DNA of 64,000 nt from an uncultured Gemmatimonadota bacterium (lineage in GTDB: Bacteria > Gemmatimonadota > Gemmatimonadetes > Gemmatimonadales > Gemmatimonadaceae): the NCBI GenBank assembly GCA_902826615.1, contig CADEFN010000001.1, positions 1 to 64,000 of the forward strand. Reading direction: 5' to 3'. The translations under genes and the position numbers were made by a program. This document shows positions 38,420 to 46,195 of this stretch, piece after piece. The notes under the pieces were generated by a model. It was not told the origin of the DNA. It saw nothing but the letters and a program-made list of their open reading frames with translations, and did no database searches. How positions within the stretch are numbered: position 1 is the first letter of the stretch; every line of letters starts with the position of its first letter.

Positions 38420-39718
38420 GTGAACACACAAGCCCCCAGCTCACTTCACTCGATCCTGCGACGCATCGTTGATGTGCGTCGCGAAGAAATGGCGGCCCTG
38501 GGCTGGTCGTGCCTCTACTTCTTCTGCCTGCTGTCGAGTTATTACATCATCCGTCCCTTCCGCGACGAGATGGCGGTGGCGGGAGGCACGCGCAATATCC
38601 CCTGGCTGTTCACGGCCACCATGGTGGCGATGTTTGCGGCGCATCCTCCGTTTGCCGCGCTCGTCACCCGGTTCTCCCGCCGGCAGTTCATCCCGTGGGC
38701 CAACCGCTTTTTCATTGCCAATCTGCTGCTCTTCTTTGGGCTGCTCCACTTCCTCCCCGAGGGACAGCAGGTGTGGGCCGGACGGGTCTTTTTTGTGTGG
38801 ACGGCGGTGTTCAACCTGTTCGTGGTGTCGAACTTCTGGTCGTTCATGACCGATGTGTTCACGGCCGAGCAGGGCAAACGGATGTTCGGCTTTATCGGGT
38901 TTGGGGGCACCTTTGGAGGTATCGTCGGATCGCTGGTCACCTCCGTGCTCGCGGAGCCGCTGCGACCGGTCAACCTGCTGATCATTTCCGCGCTGCTGCT
39001 CGAGCTCAGCACCTTTGCGGTACGGCGTCTCAACGGCCTCTCCTCGCGCGGCGAAACCGGGGCGCGGCATTCCGGCAGCTCCGAAGCGGTGATCGGCGGC
39101 ACGTTGTGGGCCGGTCTGGTCCATGCCGCGCGCTCGCCATATCTGCTGGGCATCTGCCTCTACATGATGCTCTTCACCATCGGCTCCACCACGTTGTACC
39201 TGCAGCAGGCGGCCATCGCCGATCGCGAGTTCAGCGACTCGGGCACCCGGACCGCCTTTTTCGCACAGGTCGATCTGGCGGTGAACGTCCTCACGCTGCT
39301 GACGCAGGTGTTCCTGACGGGGCGGATTGTCAAAGCCCTTGGCGTCGCGATCACGCTCACCTTGCTGCCGGCGCTGTCCATCATCGGGTTCGGCAGTCTG
39401 GCGGCCATGCCCACCATCACGGTGTTCGTGATCTTCCAGGTGCTGCGACGAGCGGGCGAATTTGCGGTGGCCCGTCCTACGCGCGAAATGCTTTACACGG
39501 TCGTGCCCCGCGAGGACAAGTACAAGGCCAAGCACTTCATCGATACGGTGGTCTACCGCATGGGCGACCAGATTGGGGCGTGGGCCACCAGCGCCATGCA
39601 GGCGTTCGGGTTCACCACCTCGGCGGAAGCCCTGGTGGCAATTCCGCTCTCGGCGCTTTGGCTGCTGGTGGGCCGGTGGCTGGGGCGGCAGCAGGAGAAG
39701 AAGGCCGCTGCGGCATGA
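38420..39718 (+). CDS. NTP/NDP-translocase-like MFS transporter
   Basis: The 432-residue membrane protein has about twelve hydrophobic helices. The opening FFCLLSSYYIIRPFRDEMAVAGG and the MFGFIGFGGTFGGIVGSLVTS segment match NTP/NDP exchange transporters and related MFS carriers found outside intracellular bacteria, so real nucleotide exchange is uncertain. The start is GTG at 38420, four bases after the epimerase stop, which marks an operon. A terminator hairpin follows its stop. Confidence 0.7.
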   Translation: MNTQAPSSLHSILRRIVDVRREEMAALGWSCLYFFCLLSSYYIIRPFRDEMAVAGGTRNIPWLFTATMVAMFAAHPPFAALVTRFSRRQFIPWANRFFIANLLLFFGLLHFLPEGQQVWAGRVFFVWTAVFNLFVVSNFWSFMTDVFTAEQGKRMFGFIGFGGTFGGIVGSLVTSVLAEPLRPVNLLIISALLLELSTFAVRRLNGLSSRGETGARHSGSSEAVIGGTLWAGLVHAARSPYLLGICLYMMLFTIGSTTLYLQQAAIADREFSDSGTRTAFFAQVDLAVNVLTLLTQVFLTGRIVKALGVAITLTLLPALSIIGFGSLAAMPTITVFVIFQVLRRAGEFAVARPTREMLYTVVPREDKYKAKHFIDTVVYRMGDQIGAWATSAMQAFGFTTSAEALVAIPLSALWLLVGRWLGRQQEKKAAAA

Positions 39719-39725
39719 GAACGAG

Positions 39726-39752
39726 GCCGGGGCGTGTCCGCCCCGGCTTTCT
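39726..39752 (+). terminator. Rho-independent-like terminator
   Basis: GCCGGGGCG (39726-39734) pairs perfectly with CGCCCCGGC (39739-39747) around TGTC, followed by TTTCT. It ends the epimerase-transporter operon and also lies at the end of the convergent SET gene. Confidence 0.7.
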
Positions 39753-40230
39753 ATCGCGCTGCTTTTTTCGGTTTGAGAATCGACCCGCGGCAGGTGGCGG
39801 CACCACAGGAACAGGGATACCGCCGCTTGGCGGCGGGGGTGTGGCGCTCCGGCAGCACGAAGGCGTAGTCGTACGCCAGTTCTTCACCCGCCGTCACCTG
39901 GCGAATGGTCTCGATCCAGAGCCGTTTCTCATCGACCACCACATCACAGTTGGGGTCGCAGGAGTGGTTCAGGAATCGCGCCTCGTTGCCGTTGACCGCG
40001 GCGTCTACCACCACGTCGTCGTCGATGGCGAAGAGAAAGGTGTGGTGGCGCTCGTCCCCATCCGGATAGCGGGCGTCCGCCTGCGCCGGGGTCAGTCGCT
40101 CCCCGGCGTACTCGATGAGACGCACTCCCTCGGGAATGTCACACGTCGCAAAGGCACCCAGTCCCTGAATGGGCGACGAACGGACCTCAAACCACTCGGT
40201 GCGAATCACACCATCCGGGGCGCCACTCAC
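39751..40230 (-). CDS. SET-domain protein lysine methyltransferase-like protein
   Basis: The 159-residue protein has a complete small SET domain: VRSSPIQGLGAFATCDIPEGVRLIEYAGE at the N-terminus, FLNHSCDPNCDVVV (SAM-binding NHSC), GEELAYDYAF (catalytic Tyr) and a post-SET cysteine cluster YPCSCGAATCRGSIL that would bind zinc. It should methylate a protein lysine; the bacterial target is unknown. It overlaps the histidine phosphatase gene upstream by 4 bases. Confidence 0.85.
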   Translation of the reverse strand: MSGAPDGVIRTEWFEVRSSPIQGLGAFATCDIPEGVRLIEYAGERLTPAQADARYPDGDERHHTFLFAIDDDVVVDAAVNGNEARFLNHSCDPNCDVVVDEKRLWIETIRQVTAGEELAYDYAFVLPERHTPAAKRRYPCSCGAATCRGSILKPKKAAR

Positions 40231-41906: not shown

Positions 41907-42983
41907 GTGCCCCGTCTCGTTCGTTTCGCCCTCCTGGTCGTCCTTGCCGCCTGTCGTGGCGAGCCCGCGCGTGATGCCGGGCTGTTCCGGGGCGTGTACG
42001 TCAGTCCGCCAGTGGAGAAACCCGACTTCACCTTCACGGACTTCAACGGGCAGCCGTTCAGCTTCCGTTTGGCGACCGAAGGAAAGGTGGCCCTGCTGTT
42101 CTTCGGCTATACCCACTGCCCTGATGTCTGTCCGTTGCACGCGGCCAACGTGTCGGCCGTGCTGCGACAGATGCCGTTCGACGAGGCGAGCAAGATCCAG
42201 TTTGTCTTTGTGACAACCGACCCCGAGCGCGACACACCGGAACGGCTCAAGCAGTGGCTGGGGGCCTTCGATCCACGGTTCATCGGGCTACGGGGATCGC
42301 CCGAGGAGCTGGCACGTGTACAGGCAGCCTTGCAGATCGCACCGGCCCGCAAGGAACTCCCGACGGGTGCCGACTCGGCGTCCTATCTGGTGGGGCATGC
42401 GGCGCAGGTGATTGCGTTCGGGCTCGACGGGAAAGCGCGCACTGAATACCCGATGGGCGTACGTCAGGACGATTGGGCGGCCGACCTTCCCCGGCTCGCG
42501 CGAGGCGAGGTGCCGACTGCACCACGCTCTCGGGACGGGCAACCCGCTGGCGAAGTGAACCTCGCGCCCGCGGCCACCGAGGTGACGGCGGCCGCCATCG
42601 AGATTCTCGCAGCGGTCATGGCTGCGCCTCCGACAGTCAGCGAGGGCGCGGTGTACCTGGTGGTCCGCAACAACTCTGCCCGCGCCGACACCCTCCTGTC
42701 GGTGTGGAGCCCCGAGGCCGAGGGGGCCATGATTCACTCGACGACCACGGGCGGCCGCATGCAGCAGATGGAAATGAAGTCGTCACTCCCGATTGGCGCG
42801 GGTGAAACACTCACCCTCGCCCCCGGTGCGACACATCTGATGCTGACGGGCTTGCGGCGACTTCCGGCGGCCGGCGAATCGTTTCCCTTGCGCCTGCGCT
42901 TTGCCCGTGCCGGAGAATTCATCGTGGCACCGATGGTCGTGCCGTACGCCGACGTGCAGGCGCAACTCGGCGCTGCCCGCTGA
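41907..42983 (+). CDS. SCO1-PCu(A)C fusion: copper chaperone for cytochrome oxidase
   Basis: The 358-residue protein starts with GTG 41907 and a signal/lipobox (LAAC, Cys15). Residues 30-190 are a SCO thioredoxin fold with copper ligands CPDVCP and, later, SYLVGHAAQVIAF. Residues about 220-358 are a PCu(A)C cupredoxin-like chaperone with MIHSTTTGGRMQQM and THLMLTGL, giving the His, Met, His-x-Met ligand set. The two normally separate partners in loading the CuA centre are joined in one chain. The CtaG-like gene follows at 25 bases. Confidence 0.85.
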   Translation: MPRLVRFALLVVLAACRGEPARDAGLFRGVYVSPPVEKPDFTFTDFNGQPFSFRLATEGKVALLFFGYTHCPDVCPLHAANVSAVLRQMPFDEASKIQFVFVTTDPERDTPERLKQWLGAFDPRFIGLRGSPEELARVQAALQIAPARKELPTGADSASYLVGHAAQVIAFGLDGKARTEYPMGVRQDDWAADLPRLARGEVPTAPRSRDGQPAGEVNLAPAATEVTAAAIEILAAVMAAPPTVSEGAVYLVVRNNSARADTLLSVWSPEAEGAMIHSTTTGGRMQQMEMKSSLPIGAGETLTLAPGATHLMLTGLRRLPAAGESFPLRLRFARAGEFIVAPMVVPYADVQAQLGAAR

Positions 42984-43007
42984 TGCGCCAACCAACCAAA
43001 TCCTGAA

Positions 43008-43805
43008 ATGCAGTTCTGGTGTTCTGCCACCGATACCGCCTGGTCCTGGGCGTGGAAACCCTTTCCCGGCGTCTGGATCTTCGTGATTCTGGTAGGATTG
43101 GCGGTCTCGCGTCTGGAACGCTCGGGGGCACGCGCTGCGGGGGTCACGCCGCGGCCCATGCACCCGCTGGCACTGCTCGGCGTGCTCACGCTCTGGCTCG
43201 CACTCGACTGGCCCATTGGTGCGTTAGGCGCCGGATACCTGGCCAGTATTCACATGCTGCAGTTCCTGCTCATCGCACTGGTGGCAGCCCCTGCCATCCT
43301 GGCGGGTCTCTCGCCACAGGCGCTGGGCGTGCTGACGCGGGGAAAGCCGGGCGTCGTGCTCGAACGGCTGACGAGGCCGGTGCTGGCACTGCTGATTTTC
43401 AATGGCGTCGTGTTGCTCACCCATCTGCCGCCCCTCGTGGACGGGCTCATGCGCACACAGCTCGGGTCGATGCTGATCGACTTGCTCTGGCTCGGCAGTG
43501 GCTTGCTCTTCTGGTTCCCCGTCATCGCGGCGTTGCCCGCACGACCCACCTTTGTGCCGCCACTGCGGATGCTGTATCTCGTGGTGGGGCTCATGTTCTC
43601 CCCCATCATGTTCGGTCTCGCGGGATTCATGGTGTATGCCCAGCGCCCGCTGTACGCGATCTATGAGCTGGCACCTCCATTTGCCGGCTGGACCGCGAAG
43701 ATGGACCACGAGGTTGCGGGAGTCATGATGTCCGTCATGGGTGCCACGGTCGCGTTCATCGGACTCTCGGTGATCTTCTTCCGTTGGAGCAAGACCGACG
43801 GGTAG
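43008..43805 (+). CDS. CtaG-like cytochrome c oxidase assembly membrane protein
   Basis: The 265-residue membrane protein has seven hydrophobic helices and the caa3-type CtaG pattern: LASIHMLQFLLIALVAAPAILAGLSP, TRPVLALLIFNGVVLLTHLPPLVDG, MLYLVVGLMFSPIMFGLAGFMVY. It is unrelated in fold to Cox11 despite the shared name. It probably assists copper insertion into cytochrome c oxidase, together with the SCO-PCu(A)C fusion just upstream. Confidence 0.8.
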   Translation: MQFWCSATDTAWSWAWKPFPGVWIFVILVGLAVSRLERSGARAAGVTPRPMHPLALLGVLTLWLALDWPIGALGAGYLASIHMLQFLLIALVAAPAILAGLSPQALGVLTRGKPGVVLERLTRPVLALLIFNGVVLLTHLPPLVDGLMRTQLGSMLIDLLWLGSGLLFWFPVIAALPARPTFVPPLRMLYLVVGLMFSPIMFGLAGFMVYAQRPLYAIYELAPPFAGWTAKMDHEVAGVMMSVMGATVAFIGLSVIFFRWSKTDG

Positions 43806-43819
43806 GTTTGCCGCACCTC

Positions 43820-46195
43820 ATGACCCGTCATTCCCTGCTCGCCGCCGCGGCACTCGGCGCCACAATCCTTTGCACGCCCACGCGCGGAGTGGCGCAGCAG
43901 CTTGTGTATCATGGGCGCAACCGCCAGGTGACCGCCGAACTGCCGCGCATGGACGAAGCGCCTGCCATCGATGGCGCCGTGACCGACTCCATCTGGTCGC
44001 GGGCAGCACTGCTCACCGGCTTTTCGGCGTATCTCCCGATCGACAACCGTCCAGCCGCCGACTCGACCGAAGTGTACGCGTACTACAACGCCTCGCATCT
44101 CTTCTTTGGCGTGCGGGCGTTCGAAACCCATGGGCCGGTGCATGCCACGCTGGCCGCGCGCGACCGGATCGACATGGACGACTACATCCAGATCGTCCTC
44201 GACACCTTCAATGACCGGCGACGCGCCTTCGTTTTCGGGGTGAACCCGTTAGGCGCACAGGCCGACGGCGTGCGCACCGAGGGCTTCAACCCGCCGCAGC
44301 CACGCGGCCAGACGTTTGGCGGGAACCCACCGGCCTTCATCGATCTCAGCCCCGACTTCGTCTTTGCGTCGGCAGGGCGACTCACCGACGCCGGCTACGA
44401 AGTCGAGGTGGCCATTCCCCTCAAGAGCATTCGTTTCCAGGGTTCAAACGAACAGACGTGGGCCCTGCAGGTGCTGCGATTCGTGCAGCACTCCGGTTAC
44501 CAGCAAACGTGGACACCAGCGCGGCGCGGCGCGGCCTCCTTCCTCGTGCAGTCGGGCACGGTCACCGGCATTCATGATCTGCGCCGAGACGCGGTGGCGG
44601 AATTCAACCCCGAGCTCACCGAATCGCTGAACGGAGCGCCCGACAACGATGAGTGGAAGTACCGCTCCACACCCAACCTGGGCGCCAATATCCGCTGGCG
44701 TATTCTGCCGAATCTCACGCTCAACGCCACGGCGCGGCCCGACTTTTCGCAGGTGGAGGCCGACGCCGCTCAGGTCCCGGGCGATACGAGGTTTGCCCTC
44801 TTCTTTCCCGAACGCCGGCCCTTTTTCATCGACGGCATCGAGCAGTTTGACGCGCCGAACAACCTGATTTATACGCGCCGTATCCTGCAGCCCGACGTGG
44901 CCACCAAACTCACGGGTCGCTTCGGTCGCACCAGCGTGGCCTATATGGGCGCGCTCGACGATCCGCTGGCCTCCGCCAGCGGAGAGGACCGGCCCCTGTT
45001 CAACATCTTCCGGTTGCGTCGCGACATCCTGCAGGCGAGCACCATGGGACTCACGCTGACCGATCGCACCGAACGCGACGGATTCAGCCGTGTGGCCATG
45101 GGTGACACCCGGATCATCTTCAAGCGGGCCTACACGTTTAACACATCACTCGGCGGGAGCGCGACGCGCCCGGTCACCGGGGGCGCCACGAAGACCGCGC
45201 CGCTCTGGGAGATTGGCACCAATCGAACCGGGCTGCGGTATGGATTCCGCTATGTGTTCAGCGGTATCGGGCCCGACTTCCAGGCCGCATCGGGCTTCGT
45301 GCCCCGCACCGACTTTGTGTCGGGCGCGGCATACAACCGGGTTTCGTGGTTTGGCAAACCGGGTGACCTCATCGAGAGTTTCCTCATCCGGCAAGGATTC
45401 GACTGGCTCTGGCTCTACGACCGCTTCTGGGATGGCAAGGCGGTGCAGGAAACCAAGGTCCAGTTCGAGAATGTCTTCAACATCCGTGGTGGATGGGTCC
45501 TGAGCGTCACCCCGGTGCGTGAGACCTTTCTCTTCGACAGTCGCACCTACGCTCGCTATCGACGGCTGGTGCCGAGCCCGAACGGCCCCGGAATCGACAC
45601 CCTGCCCTTTCGTGAGTCGCCGCGGACACCAACCGCGATCGTCCTGCTGCGGCTCAACACCCCACAGTACGAGCGCTGGACGGGGCGTTTCACCGGCTTT
45701 CTCGGCCGCGACATCGAGTTTTTCGAGACGAGTACCGCGCGCCGTATCGATCTGACCGGAGAGGTGGATCTCCGGCCCACCGACCAGATGCGCGTGAACG
45801 CCTCGTATCTGTATTCGCATTTCACCCGGTCGCGCGACGGGACAACCCTGTCCCGGGCCACGGTGCCGCGCGTGCGACTGGAGTACCAGATATCCCGCGC
45901 CCTCTTTCTGCGGTTTGTCGGACAGTACGACAGCCGCCTGCGCGATGCCTTGCGGGACCCGCGAGACGAGCAGCCCCTCGCCATCCTGAGCGGTTCCACC
46001 TATGTGCGGGCAGCGCGCACCACCACTCGCGACTTCCGCATGGACTGGCTCATCAACTTTGTGCCCAGTCCCGGCACCGTTGTGTTTGCCGGCTATGGCA
46101 GCTCACTCACCGAACCCGAGGCCTTCCGCTTCCGCGATCTGGAGCGGGTGCGCGACGGATTCTTTGTGAAGTTGTCGTATCTCTTCCGGCGCTAG
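43820..46195 (+). CDS. DUF5916 outer-membrane protein with CBM9-like domain
   Basis: The 791-residue protein has a signal peptide ending RGVAQQ (about residue 26). Residues 45-225 are a CBM9-like sandwich (IDGAVTDSIWSRAALLTGF, STEVYAYYNASHLFFGVRAFE, MDDYIQIVLDTFNDRRRAFVFGVNP) of the sort at the head of DUF5916. The rest is the DUF5916 region, with many alternating strands and an aromatic C-terminal strand ending SYLFRR, typical of a barrel. A role in surface binding or uptake of glycans is possible. It begins 14 bases after the CtaG gene. Confidence 0.8.
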   Translation: MTRHSLLAAAALGATILCTPTRGVAQQLVYHGRNRQVTAELPRMDEAPAIDGAVTDSIWSRAALLTGFSAYLPIDNRPAADSTEVYAYYNASHLFFGVRAFETHGPVHATLAARDRIDMDDYIQIVLDTFNDRRRAFVFGVNPLGAQADGVRTEGFNPPQPRGQTFGGNPPAFIDLSPDFVFASAGRLTDAGYEVEVAIPLKSIRFQGSNEQTWALQVLRFVQHSGYQQTWTPARRGAASFLVQSGTVTGIHDLRRDAVAEFNPELTESLNGAPDNDEWKYRSTPNLGANIRWRILPNLTLNATARPDFSQVEADAAQVPGDTRFALFFPERRPFFIDGIEQFDAPNNLIYTRRILQPDVATKLTGRFGRTSVAYMGALDDPLASASGEDRPLFNIFRLRRDILQASTMGLTLTDRTERDGFSRVAMGDTRIIFKRAYTFNTSLGGSATRPVTGGATKTAPLWEIGTNRTGLRYGFRYVFSGIGPDFQAASGFVPRTDFVSGAAYNRVSWFGKPGDLIESFLIRQGFDWLWLYDRFWDGKAVQETKVQFENVFNIRGGWVLSVTPVRETFLFDSRTYARYRRLVPSPNGPGIDTLPFRESPRTPTAIVLLRLNTPQYERWTGRFTGFLGRDIEFFETSTARRIDLTGEVDLRPTDQMRVNASYLYSHFTRSRDGTTLSRATVPRVRLEYQISRALFLRFVGQYDSRLRDALRDPRDEQPLAILSGSTYVRAARTTTRDFRMDWLINFVPSPGTVVFAGYGSSLTEPEAFRFRDLERVRDGFFVKLSYLFRR

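Follow-up and report, generated by a model that had tools for sequence, protein, structure and literature searches.

Two families of copper chaperones, SCO and PCuAC, have been associated with the CuA centre of cytochrome c oxidase, with SCO reported to bind subunit II and PCuAC to deliver copper, and with differences between species (PMC9145763, PMC6696091, PMC7558416). According to these and related accounts, the identity of the protein that feeds CuA, the sequence of the steps and the number of molecules involved vary by model organism (PMC6696091, PMC7558416, PMC3603459). In Streptomyces lividans, the sco operon is described as encoding SCO together with the PCuAC-like product of gene 3965 as two separate proteins, and the same report casts doubt on a part for the PCuAC-like protein in the loading of CuA (PMC3603459). 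The copper ligands of PCuAC follow a published spacing, H(M)X10MX21HXM (PMC9145763), and a C-terminal extension rich in His and Met, which is often but not always present and is not a required feature, is described as holding a second copper in some members. The Caa3-type CtaG, a membrane protein, has been tentatively tied in Bacillus to the CuB site of cytochrome caa3 (PMC9145763). Here, we analysed a 64,000-nucleotide stretch of contig CADEFN010000001.1 (hereafter referred to as the window) from an uncultured member of the Gemmatimonadaceae (assembly GCA_902826615.1), in which a SCO and a PCuAC domain are joined in one chain directly upstream of a Caa3-type CtaG gene.

The fused gene and its product

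Positions 41,907 to 42,983 of the window (forward strand) form a single open frame of 358 codons plus a stop, with an inferred GTG start and no inner stop. Profile searches against Pfam placed two families in this 358-residue protein far above their cut-offs, namely SCO1/SenC (PF02630; residues 39-175, positions 42,021 to 42,431; E = 1.5e-32, 112.8 bits against a cut-off of 22.8) and PCuAC (PF04314; residues 236-337, positions 42,612 to 42,917; E = 1.4e-26, 93 bits against 29.4). The preliminary description of this DNA had proposed one protein carrying both chaperones with both sets of copper ligands intact, and both statements were borne out: the SCO domain holds C71 and C75 (CPDVC) and the distal H164, and the PCuAC domain holds H277, M288, H310 and M312 in exactly the published spacing. 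The chain had also been called exported, and a signal is indeed present. Residues 1-16 (VPRLVRFALLVVLAAC; positions 41,907 to 41,954, forward strand) read as a lipoprotein signal ending in the lipobox VLAAC with Cys16 at 41,952 to 41,954, so the product, on this motif reading, is more precisely described as probably a lipoprotein with one lipid anchor at Cys16. Of 26 fusions, 22 show the lipobox pattern ahead of the SCO domain, all 26 retain the SCO ligands, and 25 retain all four PCuAC ligands. The exception (L229, G265:C46) has three of the four PCuAC ligands replaced (by E, Q and S) and keeps its SCO ligands; in one further fusion (L014), the first PCuAC column is His in the final alignment and another residue in an earlier one. 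We also considered that fusion had cost PCuAC its His/Met-rich extension, which is absent from the window's protein and present in 1/26 fused tails. This idea was ruled out by the unfused copies in three-gene operons, which lack the extension as well (0/28; all of these are crude counts).

Structure prediction with AlphaFold2 on eight fused sequences returned two folded domains (mean pLDDT 76, pTM 0.58). Confidence fell below a pLDDT of 50 at model residues 1-7, 135-150 and 191-213, the last of which corresponds to protein residues 206-228 and lies in the linker (approximately residues 201-228, positions 42,507 to 42,590, forward strand; no Cys). A flexible linker, about 25 residues long, is thus predicted between the two domains, and the placement of the heads relative to each other is not set by the model. 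Foldseek matched the first domain, a thioredoxin fold, to Sco structures (best 4bpy, TMt 0.86) and the second, a cupredoxin-like fold, to PCuAC structures (3zja, TMt 0.93), and the best matches for both heads come from Streptomyces lividans. Among the 50 Foldseek matches listed, only DipZ aligns along most of the chain, and its whole-chain fit is so poor (rmsd 16.2 to 17.5, TM about 0.3) that these matches hold no solved two-domain counterpart.

The downstream gene (43,008 to 43,805, forward strand) encodes a membrane protein of 265 residues with seven hydrophobic segments (Kyte-Doolittle) and the only PF09678 (Caa3_CtaG) match in the genome (E = 4.1e-29, 102.1 bits against a Pfam cut-off of 27.7). 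The preliminary description had placed a CtaG-like protein here at 25 bases; the gene does adjoin the fusion, at a gap of 24 bases, and in Pfam it matches PF09678 and not PF04442, which makes it Caa3-type rather than Cox11/CtaG. By its profile match, it is a member of the Caa3_CtaG family, and at 63.6 bits against the cut-off of 279.35 for the NCBIfam equivalog TIGR02737 we do not assert equivalence to the Bacillus protein. Given the tie of this family to CuB in Bacillus, the block may act on CuB in addition to CuA. A DUF5916 protein with a weak CBM9-like start (43,784 to 46,195, forward strand) comes immediately after CtaG and may share its operon. Upstream of the fusion is a divergently oriented gene with a DUF4440 domain, and the vicinity also holds a bacterial SET-domain protein (39,751 to 40,230, reverse strand) and an ATP/ADP-transporter-like (TLC/MFS) protein (38,420 to 39,718, forward strand). 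A scan for promoters and terminators revealed nothing clearly above shuffled sequences.

Distribution among relatives

We searched for the same domain pair in other genomes, as the preliminary description had recommended, and recovered it repeatedly. All five genomes of the window's genus (g1) carry the fusion, the other four at 62-70% identity, and the same fusion occurs in genera g34, g14 and g12 at 48-57% identity. In a scan of 179 genomes of the family, 127 matched the fusion query and 96 matched PCuAC; the fusion was present in 20 (g1, 5/5; g34, 3; g14, 2; g12, 1; g25, 1; g9, 1; g7, 7). Of these 20, 17 have no PCuAC besides the fused one, and G043, G157 and G158 have more. A phylum sample of 395 genomes yielded 274 with a match, and 80 further stretches were read, nine of them from the window's family. 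At least six genomes outside the family are fused, distributed across three families (G367 in f4; G389, G302, G342 and G265 in f5; G193 in f2). The survey covered Gemmatimonadota, plasmids, phages and 11 contig loci found with patterns that reach close relatives only.

We further grouped 210 distinct SCO loci according to the order of their domains (duplicates and L001, L002, L138-L145 and L147-L151 were dropped). The set is not random, since matches to the fusion and matches to PCuAC guided its choice, and some stretches stop near the match. SCO followed by CtaG (67) and SCO followed by PCuAC (63) were the most frequent orders, followed by SCO, PCuAC and CtaG as three genes (28, one of which, L146, is an Actinomycetes contig), the fusion followed by CtaG (21), PCuAC followed by SCO (14), SCO alone (8), the fusion with CtaG unseen in the stretch (5) and SCO followed by a CtaG-PCuAC fusion (4). 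For one of the five fused loci without a visible CtaG (L007), CtaG lies further out (L140). PCuAC is, on gene content, dispensable in some relatives, as in five g5 genomes with SCO and no PCuAC match. A second type of locus in the family (L033-L045, L049) has PCuAC upstream of SCO, mostly with a further weak PCuAC-like domain upstream.

Among plasmids, 427 records matched the query, and in six of them a single place spanned at least 80% of it. A plasmid-borne fusion was rejected for three of these six (L149, L150, L151), in which SCO and PCuAC occupy separate frames. On a Rhodopseudomonas plasmid, the order is SCO, PCuAC and a Cox11-cytochrome c protein. Three unannotated phage records gave partial matches.

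The four CtaG-PCuAC loci, all from genus g82 (L174, L182, L207 and L209/L145), present a mirror image of the fusion, with PCuAC joined to the C-terminus of CtaG in one open frame. The example at L145:1427-2827 (L209 is the same contig), from a Longimicrobiales bin, encodes a 466-residue protein matching both the Caa3_CtaG and PCuAC families. At all four loci, the domains are separated by an internal hydrophobic stretch with a lipobox-like motif at its end, and the products might undergo cleavage by signal peptidase II or arise from an internal start codon; the single-chain state is therefore less sure here than for the SCO fusion. This parallel join ties PCuAC to the CuB side. It also qualifies the earlier suggestion that the SCO-PCuAC fusion records a direct cooperation of the two proteins: the pair is fused in several lineages and stands as adjacent genes in the same order in others, which supports that suggestion, but PCuAC has also been joined to CtaG.

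Origin of the fusion

The probable precursor, judging from gene order in relatives, is a set of adjacent sco, pcuAC and ctaG genes in which PCuAC was likely a lipoprotein itself. In the three-gene loci, a lipobox pattern lies ahead of PCuAC in 25 of 28, and the other three have a hydrophobic stretch with a Cys that misses the pattern; for loci with SCO followed by PCuAC, the count is 57/63. None of the 26 fused linkers, which span 19 to 67 residues between profile ends, contains a Cys. Stop loss alone would leave the inner lipobox in place, and therefore the join was trimmed. Hydropathy alone fails to separate the fused from the unfused classes: the window's linker together with the first PCuAC strand, which has no Cys, peaks at 2.22, within the range of 1.91-3.11 for the signals of the three-gene loci. 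The chain has a single TM-like segment, residues 226-244, most of which is a strand of the PCuAC domain in the AlphaFold2 model. A sco-pcuAC-ctaG operon probably lost the sco stop along with the signal and lipobox of PCuAC, turning two separately anchored lipoproteins into one chain.

We next asked how often the fused state changed on trees of these loci. A quick SCO tree of 102 of the 210 rows gave seven changes, and a careful SCO tree of 100 rows, which omits the long rows L229 and L230, gave six, with a single fused clade not rejected (AU test, P = 0.086). The combined SCO and CtaG tree (60 of 78 loci with CtaG, thinned per genus and without L146; 425 columns; 17 fused against 43) needed five changes and rejected one fused clade (AU test, P = 1.6e-6). 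In this tree, the sister of the fused clade from g7 is L111, a locus with three separate genes (support 99/97). Over 118 rootings, gains alone required at least five events and losses alone at least nine. One ancestral fusion followed by repeated fission was rejected on these grounds, namely the at least nine losses against at least five gains and the rejection of one clade by SCO and CtaG together, with SCO alone at P = 0.086. The PCuAC tree had too few columns to resolve. These results suggest that the fusion evolved several times among relatives; fewer fusion events might be needed if a fused locus had been transferred horizontally. The fusion itself is real, conserved and recurrent.

Copper clients in the same genome

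We then examined the genome of the window (5.9 Mb, 98 contigs, completeness 99.12) for copper sites that the block could supply. Profile searches found one SCO, one PCuAC and one Caa3_CtaG match, all in the block formed by the fusion and CtaG, and no match to Cox11 (PF04442), for which a control search matched in 1 of 14 named genomes. On a different contig from the fusion, the coxBAC genes encode a caa3-type oxidase, whose subunit II combines COX2_TM, COX2 and cytochrome c domains and retains intact CuA residues (CNEYCGSSHANM), with COX1 and COX3 next to it. COX2 was matched a second time by a small cupredoxin-like protein (L137:2-343, forward strand) that is truncated by the contig end and shows CuA-like spacing (CSHMCGAGHGFM); this piece precedes a 432-residue frame with CxxCH motifs. 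The genome also encodes a cbb3 oxidase, whose CcoN and CcoO are fused into a 761-residue chain (L136:4662-6947, reverse strand) and which includes CcoP, and NosZ with nos genes. Given the sole SCO and sole PCuAC matches, the fusion is the only donor found for these possible clients, a statement that covers the SCO and PCuAC families and not other kinds of copper chaperone. Sole-SCO status is limited to the window's genome; within its genus, the query matches a second time in G152, G153 and G154. The main client of the fusion is likely the caa3-type oxidase with the intact CuA motif. The two domains had been presented beforehand as partners in CuA loading, which fits the CuA-bearing caa3 oxidase found here, with the refinement that CuB may be served too.

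Discussion

Together, these findings point with good probability to a real, inherited, two-headed copper chaperone that derives from an operon, is likely lipid-anchored and fills the CuA centre of caa3 subunit II. In this proposal, a SCO head with its CxxxC motif and distal His and a PCuAC head with its H-M-H-M ligands would be tethered by a flexible linker on one lipid anchor; the fused chain would most likely prepare and fill CuA in subunit II of the caa3-type cytochrome c oxidase, and the linked Caa3_CtaG would probably assist CuB. We infer the lipid anchoring, the copper binding, the copper transfer and the order of the steps. The simplest reading would be that one anchored chain metallates CuA with one copper per head, beside CtaG for CuB.

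An artefact of sequencing or assembly that joined two genes (a sequencing error is what the preliminary description had named as the finding that would undo its claim) would be conceivable from the adjacent separate sco and pcuAC genes common in relatives, but it is excluded for practical purposes, because the other four genomes of the genus (4/4) and the three sister genera g34, g14 and g12 carry the same fusion and because the inner lipobox is missing. The fusion might instead mainly serve sites other than caa3, such as CuB of the cbb3 oxidase or CuA of nitrous oxide reductase. Both enzymes are encoded in the genome, NosZ with its nos genes, and SCO- and PCuAC-like proteins are reported to act on the cbb3 CuB in Rhodobacter (PMC7558416). 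However, the neighbouring gene is a caa3-type CtaG, and a caa3-type subunit II with CuA residues is encoded in the genome; with one SCO and one PCuAC match, several clients are likelier than a role that leaves out caa3, and we regard this alternative as improbable.

A different division of labour within the same CuA role deserves more weight, although we still consider it doubtful. As in the Thermus model, the SCO head would act only as a thiol reductase and PCuAC would deliver both coppers, so that the fusion merely keeps the reductase and the donor together; this reading overlaps with our preferred explanation. In the Thermus report, Sco failed to deliver copper and reduced the cysteines, and PCuAC added two coppers (PMC6696091). 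Against a purely reductive SCO head, all 26 fusions retain the distal His of the copper site, and for the Streptomyces Sco that is the best Foldseek match (4bpy), a thiol-disulphide role was judged unlikely (PMC3603459). Returning to a copper-carrying role for both heads, a more speculative and rather unlikely idea is that the fused chain provides a measured dose, with one copper per head supplying both CuA coppers in a single docking at 1:1 stoichiometry, and with PCuAC as the movable donor of a SCO-PCuAC-CtaG unit; two-protein systems, by contrast, would need repeated visits of PCuAC. Since PCuAC is joined to SCO or to CtaG depending on the lineage, one PCuAC could feed both CuA and CuB.

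A natural two-headed chain that apparently arose several times suggests that both chaperones work at a single site and that those cells can manage with SCO and PCuAC at a 1:1 ratio. Moreover, as either head of this single protein can be disabled separately, the division of labour between them becomes directly testable.

We found no SCO-PCuAC fusion in the open-licence literature searched, including the accessible text of PMC9145763, PMC6696091, PMC7558416, PMC8424229, PMC12537917 and PMC3603459. With the SCO family (Sco1/SenC/PrrC/YpmQ), the window's protein shares the Pfam family, CxxxC and the distal His, the thioredoxin fold and, judging from the lipobox pattern, a likely lipid anchor; however, SCO chaperones are described as separate proteins (PMC9145763, PMC6696091, PMC7558416), whereas this SCO carries a second chaperone at its C-terminus. 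With PCuAC, PccA and PcuC, it shares the Pfam family, the exact ligand spacing and the cupredoxin-like fold, but its PCuAC domain has neither a signal peptide or anchor of its own nor the His/Met-rich C-terminal extension. Precedents for fused copper domains are reported in DUF1775-PCuAC proteins of Proteobacteria and in YcnJ (CopC-CopD), although the partners described there are DUF1775 or CopD rather than SCO, and the role given is copper homeostasis or uptake rather than oxidase assembly (PMC8424229). CtiP of Corynebacterium, a fusion that holds a Caa3_CtaG domain, is likewise an oxidase assembly factor fused to another part; unlike for the window's fusion, a SCO or PCuAC domain is not stated for it in the available text (PMC9145763). 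The parts, their pairing and their neighbourhood are therefore already known, and InterPro may list the architecture; within the reach of the literature searches, the novelty appears to lie in the fusion and its repeated occurrence, in the missing inner anchor and in the alternative join to CtaG.
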